From positions 1 to 22,195 of IMG/VR virus record IMGVR_UViG_3300028115_000135: a stretch of DNA of 22,195 nucleotides. One strand, 5' to 3'. Positions 2,842 to 21,397 of this stretch are shown one piece after another. A program made the position numbers and the translations under genes. The notes under the pieces were generated by a model that worked only from the letters and a program-made list of their open reading frames with translations, made no database searches and was not told where the DNA came from. Within the stretch, counting starts at the first letter, position 1. Every line of letters starts with the position of its first letter. This stretch comes from a virus.

Positions 2842-5800
2842 TTATCCCCCATTTTGGCCATAAGATTTACTGTCGCGGTCAAAGTCGGCAACGTTTGGTT
2901 TTGCCGGATTCAAATCTTGTTGAATGCCGTCTAGTAAAGAATTATACGCTTTTATAATGGCAACCCCCTGCTCTAACGCTTGTTCAGCCTTTTGGCGTTC
3001 AGAAAAAGAACCAATCGTAACTAAATCTTTTTGAGCTTGATCCACTTCACGTTCAAAAAACGTAATCAAAGACCTTATTTGGGAAGCTGCGGTAGTGCGG
3101 TTCCCAATAATTTTTGCACCTTTCGGCAAAAGCGTAGCAAAATTTGTAACCGCTTCTTCTGCACGGCCCGGCGTCATGTTTCTAAACGCAATTTTTGCAC
3201 TTTCATTTAAACTATTTAGTGCAGAAAGCCCCTCTTTTGTTCTTTCCGCAGGAGCGCCTTCAAAGAAAATAGAAACGCCTGCGTTAAACATGTTTCTAAA
3301 GAAGGCCCCTGTTCCAAACGCCGCGCCGCCGTACTGTTTTAACGGTAAGTTATTAGCAATATCCGTTGGGGTTTCTTCGGGCATTGGTATTTGTGTTGGA
3401 AGACCCAATGCGGCTCTAGCTTTTTCGGCGTCTTGAATAATAACGGGCAACGGAGGAGCAACATTTGACCCCGCTCGTGGAGTGGACAATTCGGAAATAG
3501 CCCCTTGTATTTTAGCCTCTTCCGACGGCGTTGTTTTACCTTCGCTGTAACGCTTCATAAGGTCAACGTCTTGAACAATGGCCTGCATTCTTTCGGTAAG
3601 GGTTTGTGGGCTCTCGGCCACGGTAAACACTTCAACGGGACTACTAGGATCGGTAATATCCAATAGCGTTCCGTTAATCACTTTATATTCTCGTTTCTTA
3701 TCGCCAAACAAAACTTTAACGTTTTCGGGATCTGTGTAATCAATTAGTTGCCCCGAAACAGTGGTTGTTTTTTGTTCTCCCGGCTGTTTGTAAAGCTCTT
3801 TAACATTGTTTGGATCAGTAATATCTAGCAGCACCCCTCCGATAGTAGTTGTTTTAACGTCTTTCGGTGCTTCATAAATAGTTTTAGGATTATCCGGATC
3901 AGTAAAGTCCACGGCGCGTCCATCCACAATTCGTATGTCCGATTTTGTCTTCGCTTTAAATACTTCAACGGGATTGCCGGGATCGGTAATATCCAACAAC
4001 GTGTTATCAATAACTTGATATTTCCGTGTTTTATCCCCAAACAGAACTTTAACGTCTGCGGGATCCGTATAATCTATTAACTGACCTTGAACGGTAGCCG
4101 TTTTTTGCACCGGATCCTGTCGGTACAATTCTTTAACGTTTGAAATGTCCGTAACATCCAACAAAACTCCGCCAACATTAGCTGTTTTTGTTTCTTTTGG
4201 CGCAGTAAACACTACTTTTGGATTTGAAACGTCGGTAAAGTCCACCGCTTGGTTGTTAAAAATACGAATGTCCGGTTTCTGCGCTGTTTCGTGAACGGTA
4301 ACAACATTGCTTGCATCCGTAATATCCAACAGCTTACCACCCATAACCTGATACTTGCGAGTTTTGTCACCAAACAAAACTGTAACGTTTGCTGGATCCG
4401 TATAATCAATTAACTGGCCATCTACAGTAGTTGTTTTTCGAGGTGCGGAACCTTTGTACAATTCTTTAATTTTTGTTGGATCTGTAATATCTAATACAAC
4501 ATTTCCAACCGTAATTGTTTTTATGTCCGGAGTGGCCGAATACAGAATTTTAACATTTGCTGGATCCGTATAATCAATTAACTGGCCATCTATCGTAGTT
4601 ACTTTTTGCTCAGAAGTTTCGTCGGTATAAAGAGTTATTATGTTATCCGGATCGGTAATGTCTAACAACGTGTCCCCAACTTGTTCAATGTCTCGATTAT
4701 TTGATCCCTTTAACACTAAAACAGGCTTTTGCCCGCTGACGTCATACAAGTTTCCGTCAAATTCGGTAAATTTACTTTTTTCGTCGGAAGGCTTTTGATC
4801 CGTATATCCCGAACTTATAAGTTTTTGAGCTTCTAATATGCCTTCCGAGGTTGCCGTGTTAATGCTTTTTTTCTTTCCGTCTGGGCCAAACAACGTCGTT
4901 ATGCTAAATTCAGGAGATTTCCCTGCACGCACGCGTTGGGCCGCGGTTATTGCCGAATACTCGCCCTGCGCTGCCTGCAATGCGGCAAGCTTCATAGCCT
5001 GTTCTTGTTGTTGATTGGCCGCGCCAAGCGCCCCAAGTTGTGCGCCCAAACCTGTTGTAGCGCCCGCAAGCTGCGCCGCAGGAGAAAGACCACGTAAATC
5101 TTGACCGCCCGCGCCCTGTCCGGCAGCAAACCTACCGGCCGCATCCGCTATAGCAAACAATGCCTGCGACCGCGCCGCCTGCTTTTGTTGTTCAGGATCG
5201 CCCATAATGCTCTGATAGGTGGGCAACATCTGCTGATAGAGGTTTTCCAAAGTAGGATCGCCTCCGCCCTGTAATCTTACCGGGCCGCCCTGACTAAAAT
5301 TTGCGGGAGGAGTGTTGCCCGCCCCCTGTGCCATAAGTGCGCCAACCCCTCCAGCCATCGGGGTAGGTGCCCCGGTGGGGGTTTCCATTTCTACATTCGA
5401 CGCAATCCCCTGCATCAGTTCCCCAATACCGCTGTCCACGGCACCTTGCTCGGTCATCATAATTGTGGGCTGCACCAACGCTAAAACTGATTCCGGAGTA
5501 GCCTGCGCATCCTCGGGACCAACCAAGCCGGCTAATTCATTGTATCTAGCTTGAAGCGGCTTATCGTTGCCCCGCAAAGCGTCAATAACGCCCTTCATGT
5601 CTTCGGCCGCGTCCAAACCCGCCATCATTTGACCGGCATACTCTTGGCCAACTTGCTCCATTTGACCCGCCATGCTCTGCTCCGCCGCAATAAGCTGCTG
5701 CTCTTGTGGCCCCATTTGACCGCCCATTGGACCGGGGGCCGCGGGAGGTGGTGGGGGAGGCATCATATCTTGCGGCATGGGTTGCGCTGGACCGCCAGCT

Positions 5801-5928
5801 TGGCGAAACAAAGGACGTTGCATTACGGGACCGCCCATTTGATACCGTTGTGCTAAACTGGGATCCATTTTTTGTTGAACAGACTCCGGCAGGCGTGAAA
5901 ACCCTTTGTATTGGTTAGGTACGTTCAT
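2842..5928 (-). CDS. 1028-aa virion protein with 28-residue DITDP beta repeats
   Basis: The protein has three parts. Residues 1-330 are Gly/Pro/Met/Gln/Ala-rich, with a run of prolines near residue 58 and GGPV motifs. Residues about 387-776 hold 14 tandem 27-28-residue repeats with the core G-x-L-L-D-I-T-D-P-x-N-V, each probably a beta hairpin. The C-terminal 250 residues look helical and contain a hydrophobic patch (GTGAFFRNMFNAGVSIFF). I found no Cys or Trp. Its start overlaps the stop of the 754-aa gene as TAATG, so it is probably translationally coupled. I recall similar N-termini in uncultured marine phages, but no function is established that I know of. The DITDP core resembles LVIVD-type beta-propeller repeats, though each unit here is shorter than a blade. 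Context suggests an internal virion or receptor-contact protein; confidence in the gene is high, in the role low. Confidence 0.9.
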   Translation of the reverse strand: MNVPNQYKGFSRLPESVQQKMDPSLAQRYQMGGPVMQRPLFRQAGGPAQPMPQDMMPPPPPPAAPGPMGGQMGPQEQQLIAAEQSMAGQMEQVGQEYAGQMMAGLDAAEDMKGVIDALRGNDKPLQARYNELAGLVGPEDAQATPESVLALVQPTIMMTEQGAVDSGIGELMQGIASNVEMETPTGAPTPMAGGVGALMAQGAGNTPPANFSQGGPVRLQGGGDPTLENLYQQMLPTYQSIMGDPEQQKQAARSQALFAIADAAGRFAAGQGAGGQDLRGLSPAAQLAGATTGLGAQLGALGAANQQQEQAMKLAALQAAQGEYSAITAAQRVRAGKSPEFSITTLFGPDGKKKSINTATSEGILEAQKLISSGYTDQKPSDEKSKFTEFDGNLYDVSGQKPVLVLKGSNNRDIEQVGDTLLDITDPDNIITLYTDETSEQKVTTIDGQLIDYTDPANVKILYSATPDIKTITVGNVVLDITDPTKIKELYKGSAPRKTTTVDGQLIDYTDPANVTVLFGDKTRKYQVMGGKLLDITDASNVVTVHETAQKPDIRIFNNQAVDFTDVSNPKVVFTAPKETKTANVGGVLLDVTDISNVKELYRQDPVQKTATVQGQLIDYTDPADVKVLFGDKTRKYQVIDNTLLDITDPGNPVEVFKAKTKSDIRIVDGRAVDFTDPDNPKTIYEAPKDVKTTTIGGVLLDITDPNNVKELYKQPGEQKTTTVSGQLIDYTDPENVKVLFGDKKREYKVINGTLLDITDPSSPVEVFTVAESPQTLTERMQAIVQDVDLMKRYSEGKTTPSEEAKIQGAISELSTPRAGSNVAPPLPVIIQDAEKARAALGLPTQIPMPEETPTDIANNLPLKQYGGAAFGTGAFFRNMFNAGVSIFFEGAPAERTKEGLSALNSLNESAKIAFRNMTPGRAEEAVTNFATLLPKGAKIIGNRTTAASQIRSLITFFEREVDQAQKDLVTIGSFSERQKAEQALEQGVAIIKAYNSLLDGIQQDLNPAKPNVADFDRDSKSYGQNGG
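4388..4424. repeat. Exact 37-bp direct repeat, copy 1
   Basis: These 37 bases are identical to 4556-4592, 168 bp (56 codons, two protein repeats) away. Both encode the linker and GQLIDYTDPA core of type-A units. Neighbouring units are more diverged at the nucleotide level, so this pair looks like a recent duplication or conversion. Confidence 0.85.
4556..4592. repeat. Exact 37-bp direct repeat, copy 2
   Basis: Identical to 4388-4424. The bases on both sides differ, so identity ends sharply at the repeat boundaries. Confidence 0.85.
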
Positions 5929-8192
5929 TAAAATAACCCCGCTTCTCTAGCACCGCCCGCGGCGCTAAGTCCCTGTATGCCCAAGCCAAGGGCCGTTTGA
6001 AATGGTGAAACCTGTGGCGTAGACGTTGCTGTAACCGTTTGTTGCGACGTTGGTACACCCATGTAAATGTCTGACAAGAATCCGTATTGCTGGTACGGCT
6101 GCGCTTGCTGCGCTGTAGTGGTAAGCCGCGTGGCGTCCAGACCCGCTTGGCGAATACCTCTTTCCAGAGCGCCCGACGTAATAAGGTTGGATATATCCCG
6201 TGAGCCCAGACTAGACAGCATAGACCCGATATTGGCTTGCTGACCACCAAGTGCGCCAAGCTGCGTGCCAAATTGACCGTATTGCCCGGCCAACGCGCCA
6301 AGGCCCTGACCAAGATTTTGTTGCTGGCCGCCCATAGCAAGAAGCTGTGCGACGTCTGCTTGACCCAATTGACCAAACTGAAGACCAAGCTGGCCTTGTT
6401 GCTGCGCCCCTTGCAAACCAAGGTTGCCCATTTGATTGGCCAAGTTGCCCATGGCCTGACCGCCCTGCATTCCAATGTTTGCCCCGGCCTGCGTTTGTGA
6501 CCCGGCCTGACCCAAGCCCGCAATACCCATTTGCCCGGCAGCTTGTGCGCCCTGCATTCCAAGACGCGCTTGCCCTTGCCCTAACGTTGCAATGCCTTGC
6601 GCGGCGGCGTTTTGCGCCTGCTCTACGGAAATACCCAACTGCCCAGCAATTTGCTCCGCAGACATACCAAGTTGCGCCATTTGAGCGGCATTTTTTGCAG
6701 CCCCTTGCTCCGCAGTCATGCCCATTTGACCTGCTTGACCCGCGAATTGACCGGAAAGTTGTTGCGCACTCATTCCAGTAGATGCGGCCAATTGTTCAAT
6801 ATTCATGCCCGTTTGCGCAATAGCCTGCTGATTAGCCGACGCTTGTTGCTCGGCAGACAACCCAAGTTGCGCGCCCTGCAAAGAACCGGTTTGTGCCAGT
6901 TGCTCGGCGGACAGGCCAAGATTACCCATTTGTGTGGCGGCTGTTTGCCCGCGGCCTTGTGCGGCTTCAAAGGCTGTTTGCGCGCGGTTCGCGGCGTCGG
7001 TAAATCCGGCCTGCCGCATTTGCGCCGCTGTGCGCCCTTGTTGTTCCAAAACGTTGCGACCAAGCTCGGCTTGTGCAATCGCGCCGCGAGAACCGCCAAA
7101 GGCGCCCGCGCCGACTTGCTGTGCGGCCAGCTGGTTCTGTTGTATTTCACCTTGACGGGCAACATCGGCAAGCGCCTGTTGTACCGCTTGATCTTCATAC
7201 TGGCTCATAAATGCGCCAATACCACCGGGATCAAACTGCCCTGTTGTACCGCCAAGCATTTGCTGCGCGGCGGCAACAGATTGACGCGCATTTTGAGCGG
7301 CAGTCGCCGCGCCTTGCTGCCCGGTTGCGGCGGCCCCACGGGCGCCCGTGGTAGCCGCGCCTAACCCTTGACCCAAGGGCGCGTTTAATCCTCGTAAATT
7401 TGCACCGGCTGTTCCCGCGATATCCTGCGCACCCTGCGCAAAACCTCCAAGAGCCTGCCCTGTTGCCGCAGCCTGCCCGCGCATTCCGGCGGTAGCCGCA
7501 TCTAATCCTGCAATTCCTGAACCCGCCGCACCTCGCAGGCCCTCGCCAGCCATTTGTTGAATGGTTCCTAAGTCACCGATATTGGTGCCTAGAACGTCCT
7601 GCGCGCCCTGCGTACCCGCTGCGGAGGCCGCTGCTTGGTTACGAATGTCCCCTGCCGCGTCAAAGCCAAACTGTCGAGACTCTGCACCGAGGTCCGCGAG
7701 AGTTGAGCCGAGGGCCGAGGATTGCTGTAATTGAGCTAATGCCCCTGCACCCATGCCCGTGCCCAGCTGCACGGCGTCTTGAATGCCTTGGTTAGCGGCC
7801 GCTTGATAGGCATAAGGAATATTACGGGTATTGCCCGCTAATTGCGCCGCTTGGTTAATAAAGTCTTGCCCGCCGCCCATGCTAGTCATGGCTTGTTGCA
7901 AGGCCGGAATGCCGCCTTGTTGGATGTAGTTTTGTCCGCCTATAATAGCGTTAGCCCCACCTTGTAGGTAGGGCGCGTATTGTCCAACACCTTGTTGCGC
8001 TAATGCAATGGCATCTAACTCGGGCTGTCCCAGTCCCGCAACTTGATATGCGGGCGGCGCTTGAGGGTTTTGTACTTGGTTGGCAATAAACTGTTGTACG
8101 TCGGCTAACAGCGCGCGGCGGTACTTTTCAATGTTGGGGTCTTGGCGCGTTATTGAGGTATTAACGGTGCCATAGTTTGTTGTGTCGGTCAT
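5928..8192 (-). CDS. 754-aa Gln/Ala/Gly-rich virion protein
   Basis: A very low-complexity protein dominated by Ala, Gln and Gly. I found no Cys, Trp or His and almost no Lys. The N-terminal 60 residues (TNYGTVNTSITRQDPNIEKY, then a normal-complexity stretch) and the C-terminal 60 residues are more conventional and are probably the conserved ends. Residues about 424-555 carry an 11/18-residue helical repeat with the core LGMSAEQ. The start overlaps the stop of the 515-aa gene as ATGA, with AGGGGGTG upstream; its own stop overlaps the next ATG as TAATG. An extended helical internal virion protein, possibly ejected or acting as a length ruler, fits the composition and position but is inference. 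Long open frames seen in other frames here are by-products of the biased composition. Confidence 0.88.
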   Translation of the reverse strand: MTDTTNYGTVNTSITRQDPNIEKYRRALLADVQQFIANQVQNPQAPPAYQVAGLGQPELDAIALAQQGVGQYAPYLQGGANAIIGGQNYIQQGGIPALQQAMTSMGGGQDFINQAAQLAGNTRNIPYAYQAAANQGIQDAVQLGTGMGAGALAQLQQSSALGSTLADLGAESRQFGFDAAGDIRNQAAASAAGTQGAQDVLGTNIGDLGTIQQMAGEGLRGAAGSGIAGLDAATAGMRGQAAATGQALGGFAQGAQDIAGTAGANLRGLNAPLGQGLGAATTGARGAAATGQQGAATAAQNARQSVAAAQQMLGGTTGQFDPGGIGAFMSQYEDQAVQQALADVARQGEIQQNQLAAQQVGAGAFGGSRGAIAQAELGRNVLEQQGRTAAQMRQAGFTDAANRAQTAFEAAQGRGQTAATQMGNLGLSAEQLAQTGSLQGAQLGLSAEQQASANQQAIAQTGMNIEQLAASTGMSAQQLSGQFAGQAGQMGMTAEQGAAKNAAQMAQLGMSAEQIAGQLGISVEQAQNAAAQGIATLGQGQARLGMQGAQAAGQMGIAGLGQAGSQTQAGANIGMQGGQAMGNLANQMGNLGLQGAQQQGQLGLQFGQLGQADVAQLLAMGGQQQNLGQGLGALAGQYGQFGTQLGALGGQQANIGSMLSSLGSRDISNLITSGALERGIRQAGLDATRLTTTAQQAQPYQQYGFLSDIYMGVPTSQQTVTATSTPQVSPFQTALGLGIQGLSAAGGAREAGLF
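6530..6921 (-). repeat. LG(M/L)SAEQ helical repeats, 11/18-residue spacing
   Basis: Inside the 754-aa gene, LGLSAEQ, TGMSAQQ, MGMTAEQ, LGMSAEQ and LGISVEQ recur. Some are 11 residues apart and some 18, i.e. one or one-and-a-half turns of a hendecad-like pattern (18 = 11 + 7). Hydrophobic positions are held by Leu, Met or Ile, and the rest is Ala, Gln or Gly. This is the pattern of a long right-handed or straight helical bundle. Confidence 0.7.
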
Positions 8193-9736
8193 GCTACGGC
8201 ACCCCCTTCAAACATTCGCATCATATTATACATGTTTTTCATGCCTTGTTGACGACTTCCACCGCCCGCGCCACGCACCGCATCGGCGGTCATTACAAAC
8301 TCGCCATCTGAAAGCATGGCCGGAACACTGTCGGAAGTGCCTGTACCCGGACCAGAAATAGGGCCATTACGGCGCGGGAAATTTTGTACGCCACCACCGT
8401 TTGCCGCGTAAATACCACTTATTGGGTTGCCAAAGCGGTCATAGCCAAACACTTGATCGCTGCCTATTTGACCTTGCGCAATTAATGCTTGCAGATCAGG
8501 CAGTTGCAGATCAGGCAGTGCAAAAGACGGTGCATTGGGGTCTTGAGCCATGGCGTTAGGCATTGCGCCGGCCATTTGTACCATGTCTTGGTTTGTTGCG
8601 CTTATGCCGGGAACGCTGGAGGCAGGGACAATGCTGTCGTTTACGCCGGGAAGCGGATAACGCTCTGGAACGCCCACGCGCACCGCGTCGATTTCTTCCT
8701 GCGTTAGTTCCGGATACGGGCTAAATCCTTCGGGCAAGCCTTGCCCTTCTGGCGGATCAAACGCGCCCGCCGCAAAGGCTACGCCTGTGCCGGCTAATGC
8801 CGCGGGGCCAAATTGCTGAAGTACGCCGGGAGCCGCTTGTGCTATCTGTTCAGCCGCAGTTAATGTACTAAACCCCGGAACAGTAGCCTTAAAAGATTCT
8901 ATGTTTTTAGCCAATAAGTCTTGCTTGCTGGGCAACAAAACGTCTTTTGCGGTTTGTGCAAAAGTTTTACTGCCTTCAACTGCGGATTTTCCCGTTTCTC
9001 CAAGACGCGCTAACTCTGAACCCGCTACGTTTGGAGTTGCCCCCGCCATCGGCTTGCGGCCAAAGAAACTATACGCTGGATCGCCTTGGAAGCCTTTTCC
9101 AATGCCGCCTAAGAAACCACCTTCTTTTCCAATATTACCAATGCCGGACGAAAGACCGCCTATAGCGCCACCAATAAGCGCCGCCTTCATACTGTCTTCA
9201 AAACTCTTGCCTTGCGCCAATGACCCGAGGCCCGCGCCCAACGCGCCAGAGGCAATTGTGCCCATGCCGGGAAAAACAGCATTTAACACAAAGGGTAAAA
9301 CAACAGGCGCAATCTTTTTAACGACGTTTACAACGCCCTTTACCGCCTTTTTAATTCCACCAACAAGCTTTTTAAGAAAAAACTCTCGCTGCCCCGTCAT
9401 AGGATTAACCGAGTTACTATCTGATCCAACCACATACGCGTCAGGATCCGCCCCCTCCGCAGCAATAGCCTGATTAATCATGGCCAGCATTTCAGGGTTT
9501 TTCTCCGCAACCTCCCGGGGAACCATAACTTCCCGCTCAGAAGCATGAACAATGTATTCATCGCCCTCGCGGCCCATGTTCGCCATGCGCTCCGCCACAT
9601 CTCGCATAGAGTTAATACCCTTAGGAGCGCCAAACATTAAAATGCTGTCGTCTATTTCGTCCATGTTGGAAGCTAGAAAGGAGCCAATACCGCGGTCATC
9701 AACCTCTATCATTTGTGCGCCATTGTTTGCCATCAT
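8189..9736 (-). CDS. 515-aa virion protein with hydrophobic centre, possible ejection protein
   Basis: The N-terminus (residues about 1-110) contains YIVHASEREVMVPREVAEKN. The C-terminus contains GTSDSVPAMLSDGEFVMTA and ends with EGGAVA. Both are variants of the 'pathway to GEFV' motif common in tape-measure and internal proteins of phages. Residues about 130-215 are basic then hydrophobic (LVGGIKKAVKGVVNVVKKIA followed by Gly/Ala/Leu-rich segments), a layout typical of membrane-interacting segments. The start at 9736 overlaps the zinc-ribbon gene as ATGA and has a good GAGGTGAGGC ribosome site; the second Met, at 9733, is an equally possible start. Position after the gp10-like protein suggests an internal virion protein. 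Function is inferred, not recognised. Confidence 0.88.
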   Translation of the reverse strand: MMANNGAQMIEVDDRGIGSFLASNMDEIDDSILMFGAPKGINSMRDVAERMANMGREGDEYIVHASEREVMVPREVAEKNPEMLAMINQAIAAEGADPDAYVVGSDSNSVNPMTGQREFFLKKLVGGIKKAVKGVVNVVKKIAPVVLPFVLNAVFPGMGTIASGALGAGLGSLAQGKSFEDSMKAALIGGAIGGLSSGIGNIGKEGGFLGGIGKGFQGDPAYSFFGRKPMAGATPNVAGSELARLGETGKSAVEGSKTFAQTAKDVLLPSKQDLLAKNIESFKATVPGFSTLTAAEQIAQAAPGVLQQFGPAALAGTGVAFAAGAFDPPEGQGLPEGFSPYPELTQEEIDAVRVGVPERYPLPGVNDSIVPASSVPGISATNQDMVQMAGAMPNAMAQDPNAPSFALPDLQLPDLQALIAQGQIGSDQVFGYDRFGNPISGIYAANGGGVQNFPRRNGPISGPGTGTSDSVPAMLSDGEFVMTADAVRGAGGGSRQQGMKNMYNMMRMFEGGAVA

Positions 9737-12879: not shown

Positions 12880-15800
12880 TTATGCGTTTTCTAGGGCAGT
12901 TACTTTTGCCTCTAGAGTTTCAATACGATCCATTGCCTCTTGCAGTGCCTTGACTGCTTTCATGTAGAGGATGGAGTAGTTGACCTGCTTAGTGACTGTT
13001 CCAAGATCGTTCAGATCATCATCTTTATCTGGGCTTTCAAACACAAGACCGCCCATTCCAGCCGCTTCAACTTCTTGCGCAATGACCCCCAGCATATTTG
13101 GTGCGTCAAGATTATCTGCTTTCATGCTGTACTTGCGGACAGTCAACGCCTTGATGTCATCCCATTGCGATGAAGCATCAACAATGTTTTCTTTCAGCTT
13201 AATGTCTGAGATAGCACCGTAACTATTGTTTGTATTTACAACATTGCCGTTAGAATAAATCCTCATCCTATCTGTGGTTGAATCAGTGCATTGCAAAAAG
13301 TAAGCAGTTGTATTGTTAGGTGAGGCGTTACTAAAACCAATGGCAGGGCCATAGGGGGTATTTCCTAAGTGTCTAAATATTGCTATGTTTTGGGCGTTGG
13401 TATCGCTTCTCATATCCCAGTAAGGATATGAATTTCCTCCGTGCCAAAACAACCTAGGATTACCATCCCCATCCGACAGCACGATGTTGTTGCTTGAGGT
13501 GCGGATGTCCAAGCCGCCTTGGTTGCCGTTGTAGCGGCCTATGATGGTGTTCTTAGCGCCACTACTAACTAAAATCCCACACTCATGCCCAAGAAAAGTA
13601 TTACTTGCCCCAGTTGCAGTGCGTCCTGCCATACGACCTATCATAGTTGAAGCACTAAGAGCAGTTCCATCACGACCCGCTTCATGCCCAATCAAAACAT
13701 TTTCACTGCCAGTTATATTTTCATATCCTGCTTTAAGACCCAGAACAGTGTTAAAAGTGCCAGTAGTGTTATCGTGTAATGCTTGATACCCAACCGCTGT
13801 GTTGTTGCTGGCGGTGGTGTTATTTAGAAGTGCTGAGTGACCCATAGCCACGTTGTTTGCACCTGTGGTGTTTTCGTACAAGGTGCGATAGCCAATGGCT
13901 ACGTTTAGACCGCCTGACGTTGTATCAAGCATAGATTGATAACCAATAGAAACATTTTGCCCTGAGTTTGATGCGTAAGAAGCCTGATAACCCAGAGCAG
14001 TGTTTTGGCTGGCGGTGGTGTTGGAGACAAGAGATTGATGTCCGACTGCCGTGTTGAAACTGCCAGAGATGTTTTGCTGCAACGCATCTTTTGCAAACGC
14101 AGCGTTCTCTTGACCAGTTGTGTTGGCATACATCGCTGTGTAACCAACAGCAGTGTTCTTGCTGGCGGTGGTGTTTTTGTTTAAAGCAGCATGACCCATT
14201 GCCGTGTTATAGTTACCTGTAGTATTTTCAAACATACTATCACGGCCAATAGTCGTGTTTTGTTCACCCGTGGTGTTATAGTATAAAGATGTAGTACCTA
14301 ACGCAGTGTTATAGCTACCTGTGGTATTGGTATACAGTGCAAGCCTACCAATAGATGTGTTTAGTTGGCCTGTGGTGTTAGAATATTGTGATTGATACCC
14401 AACGGCTGTGTTGTTGCTGGCGGTGGTGTTGCTTTCTAATGCAGACCTACCAAGTGCGGTATTGTTGGCTCCTGTTGTGTTAAAGTATAGAGCAAAGCCT
14501 CCAGCAGCTAAGTTTTGCCCACCTGTAGTGTTAGTAAACCCCGCCTTTACACCCAAAAAGGTATTAGGTGTACCAGTAGTATTACTATACCCCGCTTGAT
14601 ACCCAACGGCAGTGTTGTTGTCGGCAGTGGTGTTGGCATGTAAAGACTGATGACCAATAGAAACGTTATTTGCGCCTGTCGTGTTGGCCTCAAGTGACTG
14701 CGCCCCAACACCTACGTTGTAGCTACCTGTTGTGTTATTATATAAAGAATTAACACCAACAGCCACACCATTGCTGCCAGAAGTATTATCAAGCATAGCT
14801 GCGTAACCAATAGCCGTATTACTAGATGCTGTAGTATTAGCACCTAAAGTGTCCATACCCAATCCAGTGTTGTAGCTACCTGTTGTGTTTGAAATAAGTG
14901 CGGTACGACCAACAGCAACGTTTCTAATACCTGTAGTATTGGCTTTCAAAGTGCCTTCACCAACAGCGGTGTTTCGGTTTCCTGATGTATTGGCAACCAT
15001 AGACGAACGACCAACAGCAACGTTGTATGAACTTAGATTAGCTTTAAGCGCACCTTCACCAACAGCAACGTTTTCTAAGCCAGTAACGTTTGCTTGCATC
15101 GCTTGAAAACCGACAGCCGTATTGTTACCCGCAGTAGTGTTTGCAGTCAGTGCATAACTGCCAAGAGCGGTGTTGCCTGTTCCAGTAGTGTTTTGTTTTA
15201 AAGCGGTATAGCCTACTGCTGTTGTGTCTCCATTCGTACTAGAATACCCTGCTTGGTAACCCAGAAGAGACAGTCTTTGATTGCCCGTTGCGCTATACCC
15301 AGCCTCAACTCCAACAGCAGTGTTTTCAGATGCGGTGGTGTTAGAACCAAGTGCATCCCGTCCGACAGCTACGTTTTTTGCGCCAGTAGTATTTGATGTC
15401 AAAGCACGGAAGCCAACAGCCGTGTTGTTATCCGCTGTCGTATTAGCCTCTAATGCCTCACGACCCAATGCAGTGTTAAACTCACCTTCCGTGTTTGTGT
15501 ACATTGCACGATAACCAAATGCACTGTTACCAGATGCGGTGGTACTGGAGTACAGCGAAAACGCTCCCGATGCAGTATTATATGCACCTGTTGTATTATT
15601 CGTTAGGGCTACTGCTCCAAAGCTCGTGTTGTCATTAGAAGTTGTTGTTCCCTTCCCAGCACCTTTACCAACAGAAGTGTTTCGTATCCCTGTAGTGTTG
15701 GCATAACCAGCTTCGTAACCAACAGCGGTGTTTTCGGTTGCGGTGGTGTTGGAGAATAACGCATCAGCACCAACCCCAACATTGTACTGACCAGAAGTAG

Positions 15801-17037
15801 TGTTTCTAAGTGACCTACGCCCAACACCCGTATTATAACTGCCTGTTGCACTACCTAAAGAGTTCATCCCAACGGCTGTGTTGTAATTAGCTGTTGAAGC
15901 TGTGGCAAGCGCACCGCCACCCAAAGCAGTGTTATCGCTTCCTGTTGTTAAAGCTGTACCTGCGGTGTTACCAATAGCTACGTTATTAGAACCACCTGAG
16001 GCAACACTATCTAAAGCAGTATTACCCAACGCTACGTTGCCTGTACCTGTAGGATAATTACCATCCAGCTTAATCGTGCCGCTAGATACGTCAAAATTTG
16101 CGCCGACAGTAACATTCGCATTAAAACTTGCGTTACCCGCCTCAGACATATCAAGGGTAAGGGCAGTAATACTAGAACCGTTATCAATACCCTGAAAAAT
16201 AATATCTTCATCACTTATAAGAGATTTTATCGCCATATCTGCTGGAGTGCTGTTTGTAGATATTTGACCAAACTGTGTGCCGCCATCCGCAAATATTATC
16301 TGCTTTCCATCAGCATCAAGAATAATATCTCCTGCAACATCTAACGTTAAATCGCCAGAAGCGTTGGTAATATTGTCCCCTGCGCTAAATACGATGTTAT
16401 TACCGCCAGTCGTATTACCGTTAGCTAGAACCTCGGACAGTTCGTTGTTCGCGCCAACCTGTGTATCTACATACGCCTTGATAGACTGCTGTGTTGCCAA
16501 CGCTGTTGCGCTATCCGAAGCCATGTTGTCTTCGTCAAGAATCGCAGTCACTGACACGCTACCCAAACGCAAGCTGTCAAAAAACGCGTTGTTAAAGACG
16601 TTCGCCGCGACCGCGCCAGTTCCAGCGCCGTTAAAAAATACAACCGCTGTCGTACCCGCAGGCACCTCGTAGTCGTTACTTGCGCTATATGTCCCTTGAA
16701 ACAACAAGATGCTGCGCGAACCAGACAGGTTATTCCGCACATATATAATCTTTTCCGCGTCATTCGGAGTAAGCTGCACAAACGCAGTGCCGCCCAAATC
16801 CCCGCCATCGCCAAAAATAACCAAACGATTACGTCCATTAGAAGACGCGCCATCGCTGATAGGCAACGTGTTAGGAGATCCAGAAGACCCCGTGGCTGCA
16901 AGCGTTACAGACACCTGACCGTCAAGCGCGGTATCCAGAAGTTCAAAGTTCGTGTTCGTTGTATCGCCCCATGTGCCCGACTGTTCGCCTGTGCCGATGA
17001 GTTCGATACCGTTATTCAGTGTATATGTACTAGGCAT
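12880..17037 (-). CDS. 1385-aa tail fibre/spike with NTAVG repeats and S74 chaperone
   Basis: Four regions are visible. Residues 1-130 (STYTLNNGIELIGTGEQSGT followed by WGDTTNTNFELLD) form the usual N-terminal virion-attachment segment. Residues about 130-330 form a beta-rich shaft (SGDLTLDVAGDIILDADGKQ). Residues about 332-1178 are about 50 tandem 17-residue repeats of the NTAVGxxALxxNTTGxx type, related to the head repeats of trimeric YadA-like adhesins. Residues about 1270-1385 are an intramolecular chaperone of endosialidase (peptidase S74) domain, with ISDIKLKENI, LGVIAQEVEAAG and a C-terminal coiled coil (MDRIETLEAKVTALEN). By analogy with this family the protein trimerises and the chaperone cleaves itself off. 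It is the likely receptor-binding fibre. The start has GGAAAAAATT upstream. Confidence 0.93.
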   Translation of the reverse strand: MPSTYTLNNGIELIGTGEQSGTWGDTTNTNFELLDTALDGQVSVTLAATGSSGSPNTLPISDGASSNGRNRLVIFGDGGDLGGTAFVQLTPNDAEKIIYVRNNLSGSRSILLFQGTYSASNDYEVPAGTTAVVFFNGAGTGAVAANVFNNAFFDSLRLGSVSVTAILDEDNMASDSATALATQQSIKAYVDTQVGANNELSEVLANGNTTGGNNIVFSAGDNITNASGDLTLDVAGDIILDADGKQIIFADGGTQFGQISTNSTPADMAIKSLISDEDIIFQGIDNGSSITALTLDMSEAGNASFNANVTVGANFDVSSGTIKLDGNYPTGTGNVALGNTALDSVASGGSNNVAIGNTAGTALTTGSDNTALGGGALATASTANYNTAVGMNSLGSATGSYNTGVGRRSLRNTTSGQYNVGVGADALFSNTTATENTAVGYEAGYANTTGIRNTSVGKGAGKGTTTSNDNTSFGAVALTNNTTGAYNTASGAFSLYSSTTASGNSAFGYRAMYTNTEGEFNTALGREALEANTTADNNTAVGFRALTSNTTGAKNVAVGRDALGSNTTASENTAVGVEAGYSATGNQRLSLLGYQAGYSSTNGDTTAVGYTALKQNTTGTGNTALGSYALTANTTAGNNTAVGFQAMQANVTGLENVAVGEGALKANLSSYNVAVGRSSMVANTSGNRNTAVGEGTLKANTTGIRNVAVGRTALISNTTGSYNTGLGMDTLGANTTASSNTAIGYAAMLDNTSGSNGVAVGVNSLYNNTTGSYNVGVGAQSLEANTTGANNVSIGHQSLHANTTADNNTAVGYQAGYSNTTGTPNTFLGVKAGFTNTTGGQNLAAGGFALYFNTTGANNTALGRSALESNTTASNNTAVGYQSQYSNTTGQLNTSIGRLALYTNTTGSYNTALGTTSLYYNTTGEQNTTIGRDSMFENTTGNYNTAMGHAALNKNTTASKNTAVGYTAMYANTTGQENAAFAKDALQQNISGSFNTAVGHQSLVSNTTASQNTALGYQASYASNSGQNVSIGYQSMLDTTSGGLNVAIGYRTLYENTTGANNVAMGHSALLNNTTASNNTAVGYQALHDNTTGTFNTVLGLKAGYENITGSENVLIGHEAGRDGTALSASTMIGRMAGRTATGASNTFLGHECGILVSSGAKNTIIGRYNGNQGGLDIRTSSNNIVLSDGDGNPRLFWHGGNSYPYWDMRSDTNAQNIAIFRHLGNTPYGPAIGFSNASPNNTTAYFLQCTDSTTDRMRIYSNGNVVNTNNSYGAISDIKLKENIVDASSQWDDIKALTVRKYSMKADNLDAPNMLGVIAQEVEAAGMGGLVFESPDKDDDLNDLGTVTKQVNYSILYMKAVKALQEAMDRIETLEAKVTALENA
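13207..13209 (-). other. Predicted S74 autocleavage serine (Ser1277)
   Basis: The codon for Ser in GAISDIKLKENI. In S74 chaperones the chain is cut just before this Ser, and a downstream Lys in the same motif (here K in DIKLKEN) helps catalysis. Cleavage would release a C-terminal piece of about 109 residues. Confidence 0.7.
13530..16045 (-). repeat. About 50 tandem 51-bp (17-aa) repeats in the fibre gene
   Basis: Units begin at NTAVG or a variant (NVAVG, NTALG, NTSIG, NVGVG), spaced 17 residues apart with only occasional losses or gains of one residue. Counting by eye gives about 50 units between residues about 332 and 1178. DNA copies are diverged but retain near-identical islands such as the block encoding NTTASNNTAVGYQ. 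Confidence 0.9.
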
Positions 17038-18191: not shown

Positions 18192-18842
18192 TTATGTTCT
18201 TTGTATCCGTAATGTCCCACTACGATATTGATCCGTAGTCTCTTGCCCTTCGCCAAGGTTTTTCAACCTACCCAACGCCTCCATAACACGCTGATTATAT
18301 AATTGCATTAGGTTAGGATCCCCTTTCATATACGTGTAGGCTTCAACCAAACTGCCGTACAACAACGCTAACTCCGCATTTTTACTTAGCCACGTAGTGC
18401 CCGCGTCGGTTCCGGCCGTTAGACTCGCCGGACGATAAAAGTAATGCAATTCTACCGCCCGCGCGGCATTTGGTGTTGGCCCCAAAATAAAATTGCTTAC
18501 ATCAAACGCGGCATAATATTTAGGATTTCCAGTGGTTGTAGGATCCGGGTTGTACGTCTGCACAAAGTCTACGTCCTTAAATTCTAAAAACGTCATGTCT
18601 GAATTTGCATCCACAAAAGACAATGAAAACGGACTTAAAAAGTCACTGGGCATGGCTAAGTATTGATTACCCGTTGTCATTGCGCCGCTAACATTTTTAC
18701 GAAACAAACTTAATTGAACATTTTTAAGTATGCGCTCTTCGGCTAACCGTATGAACAACGGCAAATTATTTACAAACGTTGTTTCATCGTTTTCCGTATA
18801 ATCTTGAATAGCTGTTTTAAGTTCCGCGTATGTAAAACTCAT
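18192..18842 (-). CDS. Adaptor / head-tail connector-like protein (216 aa)
   Basis: The N-terminal helical half contains YAELKTAIQDYTENDETTF, FIRLAEERILKNVQLSLFRK and YLAMPSDFLSPFSLSF. A beta segment (NFILGPTPNAARAVELHYFY) and a C-terminal helical part with LLYGSLVEAYTYMKGDP follow. This order (helical bundle, beta insertion, helix) is that of phage adaptor proteins that bind under the portal; an SU10-type adaptor is the closest match I can recall. Its start overlaps the stop of the 100-aa gene (ATGA). With the gp4-like protein there are two adaptor-like products, which may form successive rings. Assignment is from pattern only. Confidence 0.78.
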   Translation of the reverse strand: MSFTYAELKTAIQDYTENDETTFVNNLPLFIRLAEERILKNVQLSLFRKNVSGAMTTGNQYLAMPSDFLSPFSLSFVDANSDMTFLEFKDVDFVQTYNPDPTTTGNPKYYAAFDVSNFILGPTPNAARAVELHYFYRPASLTAGTDAGTTWLSKNAELALLYGSLVEAYTYMKGDPNLMQLYNQRVMEALGRLKNLGEGQETTDQYRSGTLRIQRT

Positions 18843-19141
18843 GTTGTCACCGTCACACTTCCAACAAACCCAAACGCATTAGGCGAATGAAGATTAGGGT
18901 TTTCTACAAGAGGCACGCCCACGTAAACGTCTAACGGCTCCACTCTGTCCGGTCTAGGATCCTTTAACGCTTGCGCATCAATTACCTTCCGACGGGGCTC
19001 TAATTGAGGCTGCTTGGCCTCCCACTCGTCATACCCGACGATCATACCCGTCCATTCTTTACGCATTCGGCCCAAAGGATATCGAAAACCAGAACGGTCC
19101 GATATGCCATATGCGTTTTTGCCTAATGCGTACTTGCTCAT
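18839..19141 (-). CDS. 100-aa conserved protein with DRSGFRYP motif
   Basis: MSKYALGKNAYGISDRSGFR followed by YPLGRMRKEWTGMIVGYDEW defines a small conserved family in many phages. The middle is basic and Pro-rich (EPRRKVIDAQALKDPRPDRV). The C-terminus FVGSVTVTT resembles the end of the 98-aa protein and the repeats of the 234-aa protein. It overlaps its neighbours at both ends: TAATG with the gp4-like gene and ATGA with the 216-aa adaptor gene. It is therefore likely made in fixed proportion to the connector proteins. No function is known to me. Confidence 0.87.
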   Translation of the reverse strand: MSKYALGKNAYGISDRSGFRYPLGRMRKEWTGMIVGYDEWEAKQPQLEPRRKVIDAQALKDPRPDRVEPLDVYVGVPLVENPNLHSPNAFGFVGSVTVTT

Positions 19142-19809
19142 TAATTTATCCGATAATAGTCCAAACTGGGTTGAACGTTAAATGACGCCCGGTCCCGATC
19201 CTCAGTTGCCGCGCGCTCAAACTCTTCTTCGTACACCGCTTTTAAAAGCTGCACCCGATCAGGCGCACGCTTCATGGCAATGTAATAAGCCAATCCTGCC
19301 GCCAAACACGGGTAAAACCGAAACGGCAATTCCATCGTATTAATCGGAGTATCCGCGTCGTCCATGCGAACTAACCGATCAAAAATCAAAATATCCGTAC
19401 TGTTATTGGGCGCCGGCCAAACCTTTAAAGTGGGGTTTATTTGCCGATCTACAAAAAATTGCGACACCCGAGATTGTGAACTTTTTGTAGGAATATTAAG
19501 ATATTCGTCGCGGCTTACGCGTTGAATACCATAATCCACACTATCGTTACGAACCACCGCGGACAACACATCAATAGTATCTGCCCCCAACGAATAGTCC
19601 GTTTGACCTTGAACAACAGTAACTTGCGTTTGCGCAATAGTCCATTGATTCAACCCGCGGTTGGCCCATTCTGCCAACATAAGGTTTAAAGATCGTTTCG
19701 CGGTACGAATGTCATAACCAGTGCGAACCTCTAAGCCACACCGCTCAAACGCCTCTTCTATATATTCGGTGACGTCTAACTCAAACGCCTTCGTACCGGA
19801 AACCGCCAT
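19141..19809 (-). CDS. P22 gp4-like tail accessory / head-tail adaptor
   Basis: 222 aa. The N-terminal helices include DVTEYIEEAFERCGLEVRTG and the hallmark LMLAEWANRGLNQWTI. Next come QGQTDYSLGADTIDVLSAVV, RVSRDEYLNIPTKSSQSRVS, a beta stretch LKVWPAPNNSTDILIFDR and a C-terminal helix region. The 'LN-L-M-L-x-E/W' helix and overall order fit the gp4 family of adaptors, which bind the portal and start tail assembly in P22-like podoviruses. It is longer than P22 gp4 (166 aa). It starts 2 nt after the 49-aa gene's stop, with GGAG about 8 nt before the ATG, and ends as TAATG with the 100-aa gene. Confidence 0.82.
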   Translation of the reverse strand: MAVSGTKAFELDVTEYIEEAFERCGLEVRTGYDIRTAKRSLNLMLAEWANRGLNQWTIAQTQVTVVQGQTDYSLGADTIDVLSAVVRNDSVDYGIQRVSRDEYLNIPTKSSQSRVSQFFVDRQINPTLKVWPAPNNSTDILIFDRLVRMDDADTPINTMELPFRFYPCLAAGLAYYIAMKRAPDRVQLLKAVYEEEFERAATEDRDRASFNVQPSLDYYRIN

Positions 19810-19811
19810 GA

Positions 19812-19961
19812 CTAGCTCCGCTTCTTAGCTCGTTTATTAACCGCTCCACCGCCGCGCATCTTCTTAACCATGCCGCCACCGCGCATCTTCTTAACCATGC
19901 CGCCGCCGCGCATCTTCTTAACCATGCCGCCGCCGCGCATCTTCTTAGGTCGCATTGCCAT
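19812..19961 (-). CDS. 49-aa basic repeat protein (KKMRGGGMV)4, easily missed
   Basis: The frame starts MAMRPKK, then has four copies of KKMRGGGxV (the last as AVNKR), and ends in RAKKRS. It carries about 16 Lys/Arg and no acidic residues. A strong AGGAGA ribosome site lies 7 nt before the ATG, inside the 3' end of the 194-aa gene, which it overlaps by 17 nt. The stop lies 2 nt before the gp4-like ATG, so the frame fills exactly the only sizeable gap in the operon. It is too short for many gene finders. Charge suggests binding to DNA, RNA or an acidic protein; I recall similar KKMRGGG peptides in marine phages but no tested function. Confidence 0.8.
   Translation of the reverse strand: MAMRPKKMRGGGMVKKMRGGGMVKKMRGGGMVKKMRGGGAVNKRAKKRS
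19847..19947. repeat. Four 27-bp tandem repeats
   Basis: The block GCGCATCTTCTTA recurs at 19854, 19881, 19908 and 19935, exactly 27 bp apart. Three units are almost identical, with only silent C/A-type changes in the Gly codons. This is recent expansion by slippage that preserves the frame. Confidence 0.92.
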
Positions 19962-20529
19962 TTTGCAGTCTCCTATAAAGTTGTTTTCTACGGTCCATTA
20001 ACTCTTGAGCGTTATACTCGTTCTTATATGTATCATAGTAACCTGTTTTAACCAAGCTGTCCGAAGACTTTTGTACCTTTGATAGCCGTTGTATGAAAAT
20101 TAAGCTGTATTCCGTATCGGTTAAAGGCTCAAAATCTATGTCTTCGACAAACTCATTTTCCTCGTCTTCCGGGTGAAATCCCATTAACCAAATATCGCGG
20201 TCAATAAACATACCCTCAGAAATAACGGTGTTTAAGTCATATAAATAATCGTGAAAATCTTCCGCAGACTTTTTATCTGCAAGGTCCACAATTATGGCCA
20301 AATCAAACCCGTCGTCAAACTCAGAAATGCACTTATAAAGCGTTTGATATGAATTATCGTATTTAAAAAGTATTGCAACACGGTCCTCCGCCCACGCCTG
20401 TTTTGCATAAGGGCAAGGCGGCAAATCATTAAAATACGCGTTAGGTTTTTCCAAAACGTCCCGGGACCATTGCAACAACTCTTTTACAATAACCGCCTCT
20501 ACTTTTTGATCGAAAAACTCTATATTCAT
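19945..20529 (-). CDS. 194-aa conserved phage protein of unknown function
   Basis: MNIEFFDQKVEAVIVKELLQ, then LPPCPYAKQAWAEDRVAILF, a central acidic region (GFDLAIIVDLADKKSAEDFH) and a C-terminal basic helix (ELMDRRKQLYRRLQNG). The CPYAKQAW motif and the alternating strands and helices suggest a small alpha/beta fold. I recall relatives with 'PPCPYAKxAW' in cyanophages and other marine phages, with no proven role. The start overlaps the DUF5872-like gene as ATGA. Placed among structural genes it could be an assembly factor; an enzyme is also possible. No catalytic motif can be named with confidence. Confidence 0.85.
   Translation of the reverse strand: MNIEFFDQKVEAVIVKELLQWSRDVLEKPNAYFNDLPPCPYAKQAWAEDRVAILFKYDNSYQTLYKCISEFDDGFDLAIIVDLADKKSAEDFHDYLYDLNTVISEGMFIDRDIWLMGFHPEDEENEFVEDIDFEPLTDTEYSLIFIQRLSKVQKSSDSLVKTGYYDTYKNEYNAQELMDRRKQLYRRLQNGNAT
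19969..19974 (-). promoter_or_regulatory. Ribosome binding site of the 49-aa gene
   Basis: AGGAGA with a 7-nt spacer to the ATG at 19961. It lies within codons of the upstream gene and is the main evidence that the small frame is translated. Confidence 0.75.
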
Positions 20530-20912
20530 GCCCGCGACACCGATCCTTTGGTGTGCTTACGGCGATTAGCCATCACCTTTCCGCAGCCCCGGGCCACTAC
20601 AGCGCCGTTTTTAGACGACCCGTTATACGGGCGTTTGGGCTTTGTAGAGCGTATTTCTCCCCCCGTAGCAGCATACGTTACTTCGGCTGCTTTTGTGTTT
20701 TTTACGTTGGTTTTGCCCTTTTTACCTTCGCGCTTCTTTTTTGCAGCAGTAGATTTACGCTGGCTTTTTGACAAAGAACGGGCTTTGGCTATGGGCAAAC
20801 ACCTGTCCGGGTTTTTCTTGTCTTCAGACGTCCCGCATTCTCCCGCAATATTGCCGGAGCTATCAATCCTAACCCATTTTTGCTTTCGCCATTTAGCTAG
20901 TTCGCCGCCCAC
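20526..20912 (-). CDS. DUF5872-like basic protein, GTG start
   Basis: I place the start at the GTG at 20912 (VGGELAKWRKQKWVRIDSSG). The conserved domain begins right there, and AAGGA sits 7 nt upstream. The ATG at 21002 would overlap the previous gene by 110 nt and add residues that look like its shadow. Motifs: ELAKWRKQKW, Cys26 and Cys38 (GECG...RCLP), a KKKREGKKGK basic run, and a C-terminal ARGCGKVMANRRKHTKG. The N-terminal half resembles DUF5872, found in marine phages and giant viruses. The C-terminal motif recurs in small cyanophage proteins from what I recall. A nucleic-acid-binding or virion role is plausible from the charge. Confidence 0.75.
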   Translation of the reverse strand: MGGELAKWRKQKWVRIDSSGNIAGECGTSEDKKNPDRCLPIAKARSLSKSQRKSTAAKKKREGKKGKTNVKNTKAAEVTYAATGGEIRSTKPKRPYNGSSKNGAVVARGCGKVMANRRKHTKGSVSRA

Positions 20913-21093
20913 TGCTCTTTCCTTTTGATTTTTTCGCGTAGTTGGGGTCTTTGCAGTATTTGGACGCCGCCATATTTGCATATGCTGACGGGTATGTATC
21001 AAACGTTCTTTCGGCCCACGCTTTTCCAGCAGGACAAATTTTACTGCCCTTACTTTTTTTGGAAGCGCCTTTAGATTTTTTCGAATATGCCAT
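20893..21093 (-). CDS. 66-aa basic protein with CPxGKAWAxRTF motif
   Basis: The start is set at the ATG at 21093 (MAYSKKSKGASKKSKG). The longer open frame reaching 21333 would run through the 94-aa gene in another frame and adds no recognisable sequence. The protein has Lys/Ser-rich ends (SKKSKG repeats) around a compact core: KICPAGKAWAERTFDTYPSA then YANMAASKYCKDPNY, with Cys20 and Cys47. I recall the core 'CPxGKAxAxRxFxxYPSAYAN' as a small family in marine phages, often near DUF5872-type genes. Function is unknown. It overlaps the DUF5872-like gene by 20 nt. Confidence 0.8.
   Translation of the reverse strand: MAYSKKSKGASKKSKGSKICPAGKAWAERTFDTYPSAYANMAASKYCKDPNYAKKSKGKSSGRRTS
20920..20924 (-). 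promoter_or_regulatory. Ribosome site that fixes the GTG start
   Basis: AAGGA with a 7-nt spacer before the GTG at 20912. No comparable site precedes the ATG at 21002. Confidence 0.55.
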
Positions 21094-21112
21094 TATAAAA
21101 GCTTCCCTGCTA

Positions 21113-21397
21113 TCACCACGCCTTACAGGACCAGTATCTGGCCGAAAATTTGTCTTTTGCCGTGTCACAATTGTGTCGGGCACGAAAGTTTTTACGTCTT
21201 CCCGGCTGGTCTTTCTTGATAGACATATTAGAGTCCCCAAACCGAACCAATTTAACTTCAGAGCCTTTTTTTGCCAAAACGGCACTTTTTTTGGCTTTTC
21301 CGGGAGTGCGCTTGGGTTTATTATATCCTGCAAATGTTTCTCCCCGGTATTTTAACCTTCCGGACGGCAGTCTTTCTACGTTTTTAGTTGTCGCCAT
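21113..21397 (-). CDS. 94-aa basic protein with FGDxNMxIKK...RARHNC...YWSCKAW
   Basis: The N-terminal part is Lys/Gly/Pro-rich (YNKPKRTPGKAKKSAV). The C-terminal domain reads KLVRFGDSNMSIKKDQPGRR, then FRARHNCDTAKDKFSARYWS and CKAW, with Cys77 and Cys91. This C-terminal signature is well conserved in small proteins of cyanomyoviruses and other marine phages from what I recall. The paired Cys with surrounding His and Trp could bind a metal or form a disulphide. It begins 7 nt after the 91-aa gene with a GAGGGTG ribosome site and is the first of three basic Cys-containing genes in a row. Confidence 0.85.
   Translation of the reverse strand: MATTKNVERLPSGRLKYRGETFAGYNKPKRTPGKAKKSAVLAKKGSEVKLVRFGDSNMSIKKDQPGRRKNFRARHNCDTAKDKFSARYWSCKAW

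Follow-up and report, generated by a model that had tools for sequence, protein, structure and literature searches.

We found that a 49-aa open reading frame (ORF) made of KKMRGGGxV repeats, lying directly before a head-to-tail adaptor gene in the window (a 22-kb virus record), is a real gene, a call for which conservation of the sequence across relatives is decisive. As judged from these sequences, the encoded repeat peptide is under strong purifying selection, with a pN/pS of 0.04-0.05. Because its position, charge and conservation point there, we propose a virion or assembly protein of the tail vertex, and the reading that we tentatively put forward, by analogy, is that of a small protein made late by a short-tailed marine phage and acting at this vertex in the manner of T7 gp7.3. 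The features under discussion are collected in Table 1.

Table 1. Positions in the window of the repeat gene, its signals and the genes discussed with it.
Feature	Position	Strand	Basis
49-aa KKMRGGGMV-repeat gene	19812..19961, stop included	minus	ORF call and translation
Array of four 27-nt units (three KKMRGGGMV, one KKMRGGGAV)	19839..19946	minus	Sequence, Tandem Repeats Finder
Shine-Dalgarno core AGGAGA	19967..19972, +/- 1-2 nt	minus	Sequence; conserved in relatives
SU10_adaptor head-to-tail adaptor, 222 aa, next gene downstream of repeat gene	19141..19809	minus	Pfam PF24175, E 5.7e-15
Preceding gene, 194 aa, phrog_28122 (function unknown), overlapping the repeat-gene start at its end	19945..20529	minus	PHROG match
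Second SU10_adaptor-family protein, phrog_2941, virion structural	18192..18842	minus	Pfam, PHROG
1028-aa protein, motif-like RYQMGGPV and RQAGGPA near N-terminus	2842..5928	minus	Exploratory motif scan
515-aa tape-measure-like protein, ending in motif-like MMRMFEGGAVA	8189..9736	minus	Exploratory motif scan

The full translation reads MAMRP-(KKMRGGGMV)x3-KKMRGGGAV-NKRAKKRS. The original prediction had described an ORF of this length and place with four basic 9-residue repeats free of acidic residues, and both the ORF call and the translation bear this out, with three perfect units and one variant, a net charge of +18, a pI of about 12, no D or E residue, and a composition of 37% K+R and 24% G. 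The periodicity of the peptide was reproduced by none of 20,000 residue shuffles, and Tandem Repeats Finder, which is independent of the ORF call, reported a 27-bp array at 19849-19947 (3.7 copies, 97% matches). The strong ribosome site that had been proposed is present as an AGGAG a few bases 5' of the ATG, within the last codons of the upstream gene, and it is conserved among relatives as TAYAGGAGRYT, as is the MAM start. The start codon overlaps the upstream gene (end 19945), and 2 nt separate the stop codon from the adaptor ATG (19809); the repeat gene thereby fully fills the gap in the operon, as had been predicted.

The minus-strand operon starts with two small phrog_28102 paralogues, followed by phrog_7595, phrog_27331 and phrog_23735 (three small basic proteins). 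Next in order are the 194-aa phrog_28122 protein, the repeat gene, the SU10_adaptor, a 100-aa protein and the second SU10_adaptor-family protein, after which come a phrog_644 protein, a 234-aa protein, a 1385-aa fibre/spike, two small proteins, a phrog_3287 structural protein and further genes, including the 515-aa protein with tape-measure-like matches. The three small basic genes stand in a row at 20526-21397, and their relatives recur in other loci, some with single GG motif copies. The fibre/spike (12880-17037) consists mainly of short NTAVGYxAL-type repeats and has a C-terminal Peptidase_S74 chaperone domain. The adaptor had been called gp4-like; it does adjoin the repeat gene, but SU10-type is the label that fits its Pfam match better. 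Its structure model was poor (pLDDT 59), with podovirus adaptors and portal-tail proteins as the top fold matches, and the fold search also matched the phage GP4 portal-tail complex, in two distinct chains. The occurrence of two SU10_adaptor-family proteins in one operon suggests two stacked adaptor-like rings. The phage records closest by adaptor were DSL-LC04, roseophages CRP-901/902 and pelagiphages HTVC023P/027P, all at less than 60% identity.

A scan of viral contigs, from which 600 stretches were kept, showed that relatives of the repeat peptide are encoded by at least 470 IMG/VR contig stretches. The family spans hundreds of mostly marine phage contigs, with an adaptor related to those of cultured roseophages and HTVC023P-type pelagiphages. 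Among the best 80 of the at least 470 peptide-anchored loci, the adaptor was within the locus in all 80. The original prediction had pointed to repeat frames upstream of the adaptor in marine contigs, and an adaptor-anchored search recovered them: a basic GG-repeat ORF was present at most 1.4 kb upstream in 41 of 45 non-redundant loci (directly adjacent to the adaptor in 21 of these 41), compared with 0/45 in the antisense of the same stretch and 0/45 downstream. As the definition of a basic GG ORF was fixed after a first look at the loci, the 41/45 is a description for which the controls serve as the yardstick. Three of the 45 loci (L103, L109 and L132) had no basic GG ORF upstream of the adaptor, and the fourth miss, L084, carries its repeats at the end of a 369-aa ORF, too long for the length limit applied. 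We define the family by a small basic ORF, on the same strand as the adaptor, with two or more KxMxxGG units and with purifying selection on its peptide, and the repeat gene of the window has these features. In some relatives the repeat ORF stands apart from the adaptor, either about 0.7 kb before it or 1.3-2.7 kb after it, an arrangement no less compatible with an assembly or internal protein than with one of the tail channel. Related KKKGYAKGG repeat ORFs follow the adaptor at a distance of some 1.3 to 2.7 kb in L260, L263 and L279 (211-287 aa) and in L245, L253 and L254 (97-99 aa). Two MAG contigs that would suggest a host (Maricaulis and SAR116) are short and carry phage structural genes.

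Across 22 independent pairs of relatives we counted 160 silent and 27 non-silent differences (pN/pS 0.043), and the ratio was 0.049 (bootstrap 0.024-0.077) when the start region overlapping the upstream gene was left out; the antisense frames gave 4.3, 0.19 and 3.9. Among the relatives, 12 distinct DNA sequences all encode one and the same 45-aa peptide. The frame is kept in the relatives, and silent changes far outnumber the others, which are the points on which the original prediction had staked itself. It had also read selection from silent changes between the repeats of this one gene; here the selection stands, from the relatives, but the within-gene argument alone does not, as the repeats differ by three silent sites and one amino-acid change, too thin a basis for selection. 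The mean number of silent differences between units was 2.1 within a gene versus 3.2 between genes. In closely related genes, orthologous units were about as divergent as paralogous units, so their likeness is not mainly due to recent homogenisation. An open frame alone is weak evidence, as two antisense frames are likewise open in most relatives, and a 27-nt tandem repeat with several open frames across it could in principle be a neutral array expanding by slippage under a spurious ORF. We consider this hardly credible given the low pN/pS in the sense frame, the conserved start and ribosome site, and the identical peptide kept by 12 distinct DNA sequences; the pN/pS of 0.05 together with the antisense controls rules it out for practical purposes.

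Profile searches of Pfam, PHROG and NCBIfam returned no significant match for the repeat peptide, so that we reject membership in a family described in these collections, and we regard the repeat protein as an undescribed family. A longer relative from L085, used as query, had no match among PDB sequences. A tblastn search with the peptide against 50,697 phage records gave nothing, and its relatives gave nothing useful in phage records, probably due to low-complexity filtering, which would hide this family, itself without a model, from similarity searches. Because tblastn was uninformative, we checked isolates by inspecting which gene precedes the adaptor. Immediately ahead of the adaptor gene, DSL-LC04 encodes a divergent relative of 75 aa (WJZ48052.1) and Planktothrix phage Pag-Yong1 an 83-aa protein (UMO75987.1); both are basic and GG-rich, and the former has KKMMGGGMMK, but the units of these two proteins are degenerate and non-tandem and their annotation is hypothetical only. 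The isolates CRP-901, HTVC027P and 023Pt_psg01 have no such gene before the adaptor, and in SU10 none is annotated before its gp11. As it is missing at this place in some loci and isolates and is not annotated there in SU10, the repeat protein cannot be universally needed. Literature searches with the motif strings MRGGG and GRGVIKK returned unrelated papers or none, a keyword search of pelagiphage and roseophage genome and transcriptome papers found no statement on the repeat gene or on virion proteomics, and the papers searched held no proteomic or structural evidence for the repeat protein in any virion.

The comparison with T7 rests on cryo-EM of its virion from 2024, in which six gp7.3 copies are found at the adaptor/nozzle junction, with the C-terminal residues 84-98 fixed to the nozzle, two of their lysines touching the DNA end, and with the basic N-terminus assigned to unstructured density around the DNA and thought to encircle the DNA end (PMC11784390). 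The gp7.3 sequence that we fetched is 99 aa long, with a pI of 10.1 and a GGG stretch in its C-terminal part. It resembles the repeat protein in being small, lysine-rich and strongly basic, in its GG/GGG content and in being encoded in the structural gene block, and its product is near the adaptor/nozzle in T7 (PMC11784390). Unlike the repeat protein, gp7.3 has no tandem 9-residue array and does have acidic residues, and its gene precedes the portal gene (gene 8), not the adaptor gene. An hhalign comparison found no homology between the two sequences (probability 0.4%). The KKMRGGGMV unit contains the same kinds of elements as gp7.3, paired lysines and a GGG turn, but in repeated form, and the likeness is an analogy only. 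T7 gp6.7, a small core protein, offers a second parallel as a small podovirus protein that bridges the portal and the internal core (PMC11784390).

Adaptor linkage, purifying selection, the ribosome site, the neighbouring adaptor-family genes, the charge of +18 and, as an exploratory point, the GG motifs enriched at the ends of large proteins (described below) all support an action at the tail vertex, and by this analogy a DNA- or portal/tail-binding role is plausible. We infer that the repeat protein is present in the virion, is located at this vertex and binds DNA, and that its family belongs to the small basic podovirus tail/core proteins. Several copies would then occupy the adaptor/nozzle junction or the portal-tail channel. 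There the K/R-rich units would touch the packaged DNA at its end and the GGG[M/A]V turns would tether the protein, flexibly and at repeated points, to tail or internal virion proteins; the protein may in this way aid tail assembly and retain the DNA until ejection. The repeat gene probably encodes a so far undescribed component of the machinery for DNA delivery. If it is gp7.3-like, it would be a candidate member of a class of small proteins, mostly overlooked, that keep hold of the DNA end and direct tail assembly in SU10-like phages, and its array, through copy number and unit mutants, would provide a simple handle on function.

A peptide with this charge and no acidic residues might instead condense or neutralise DNA and be packaged with the genome, binding neither tail nor core specifically. 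Several neighbouring genes also encode small basic proteins, and some relatives have a SAP-like C-terminal segment (a weak Pfam match, E 0.012), yet the M, GG and V positions are strictly conserved beyond charge, more than a polycation needs, and the linkage with the adaptor gene also argues against this explanation, which we judge rather improbable. We give little credence to a peptide aimed at the host, be it membrane-active, antimicrobial-like or regulatory, that stands in the structural operon by chance. The short cationic sequence with hydrophobic M and V positions would suit such a peptide, and a structure model of low confidence (pLDDT 63) does show short MVKKMRG helices separated by GG; the sequence has no obvious signal peptide or hydrophobic stretch, however, and its placement with virion genes is consistent.

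We also considered partners inside the head. Proteins of at least 400 aa in related contigs, whatever their function, were scanned for the motif [KRM]x1-3GGx?[VMAI], and in this exploratory count it occurred 28 times in the first 60 residues versus 6.8 expected and 8 times in the last 20 residues versus 1.7 expected, with little excess in the middle of the proteins (90 versus 77 expected). Since the pattern was picked after inspection and orthologues were counted repeatedly and are not independent, this enrichment is a lead only; it hints at a binding partner shared by these end-enriched GG motifs and the repeat protein, and in the window the 1028-aa protein might be one that shares it. It is possible, if doubtful, that the repeat protein is a head-internal or scaffold-like hub in which the GG repeats, by their multivalency, would bind a common partner, itself also a binder of the single motifs at the ends of the large internal proteins, with the proposed effect of gathering ejection or core proteins in the procapsid. 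Motif-like copies do recur at the N-terminus of the ~1000-aa protein and at the C-terminus of the ~500-aa tape-measure-like protein, a dockerin/EF-hand-like loop present in some repeat proteins also occurs N-terminally in a 921-aa protein (G004), and unit number varies while the units themselves stay intact. Set against this are the post hoc choice of the pattern, the non-independence of the orthologues and a partner protein that is still a putative one, and a hub would reduce the adjacency to the adaptor to mere operon order. We think it unlikely that KKMRGGGxV serves a large marine podovirus group as a short linear motif for assembly, with a multivalent string of copies in one small protein and single copies at the ends of several large virion proteins, all binding one shared partner. 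That partner would organise the DNA end, the adaptor and the ejection proteins, and the repeat number and the SAP-like and EF-hand-like segments would tune assembly.

A comparison of copy number, suggested with the original prediction, showed that the unit count varies among relatives. Distinct canonical peptides have mostly 3 or 4 K-M-[RK]-x-G-G units, with a range of 2 to 5 (three fragments of other ORFs being counted as 0 in this tally), and divergent relatives have more. Many relatives have an added xxLRxxAKxKGYKLVK segment that is SAP-motif-like (the Pfam match, in one member, is below the curated cut-off), and another added segment, PDLSGDGKVTQKDVLIGRGVIKK, is similar to a calcium loop of the dockerin/EF-hand kind (E 0.005 to 0.13, again short of the cut-off). 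HTVC023P encodes in the same place an EF-hand-like protein containing MKKPGGAV. The dockerin-like segment also recurs in small basic GG proteins of large contigs in which no SU10-type adaptor was detected in the fetched stretch. As PDLNKDGKVTKADILKGRGVIKKMGG, a dockerin/EF-hand-like segment is found in small basic proteins of loci L214-L237, mostly with no SU10-type adaptor found in the fetched stretch, on phage contigs of up to 122 kb.
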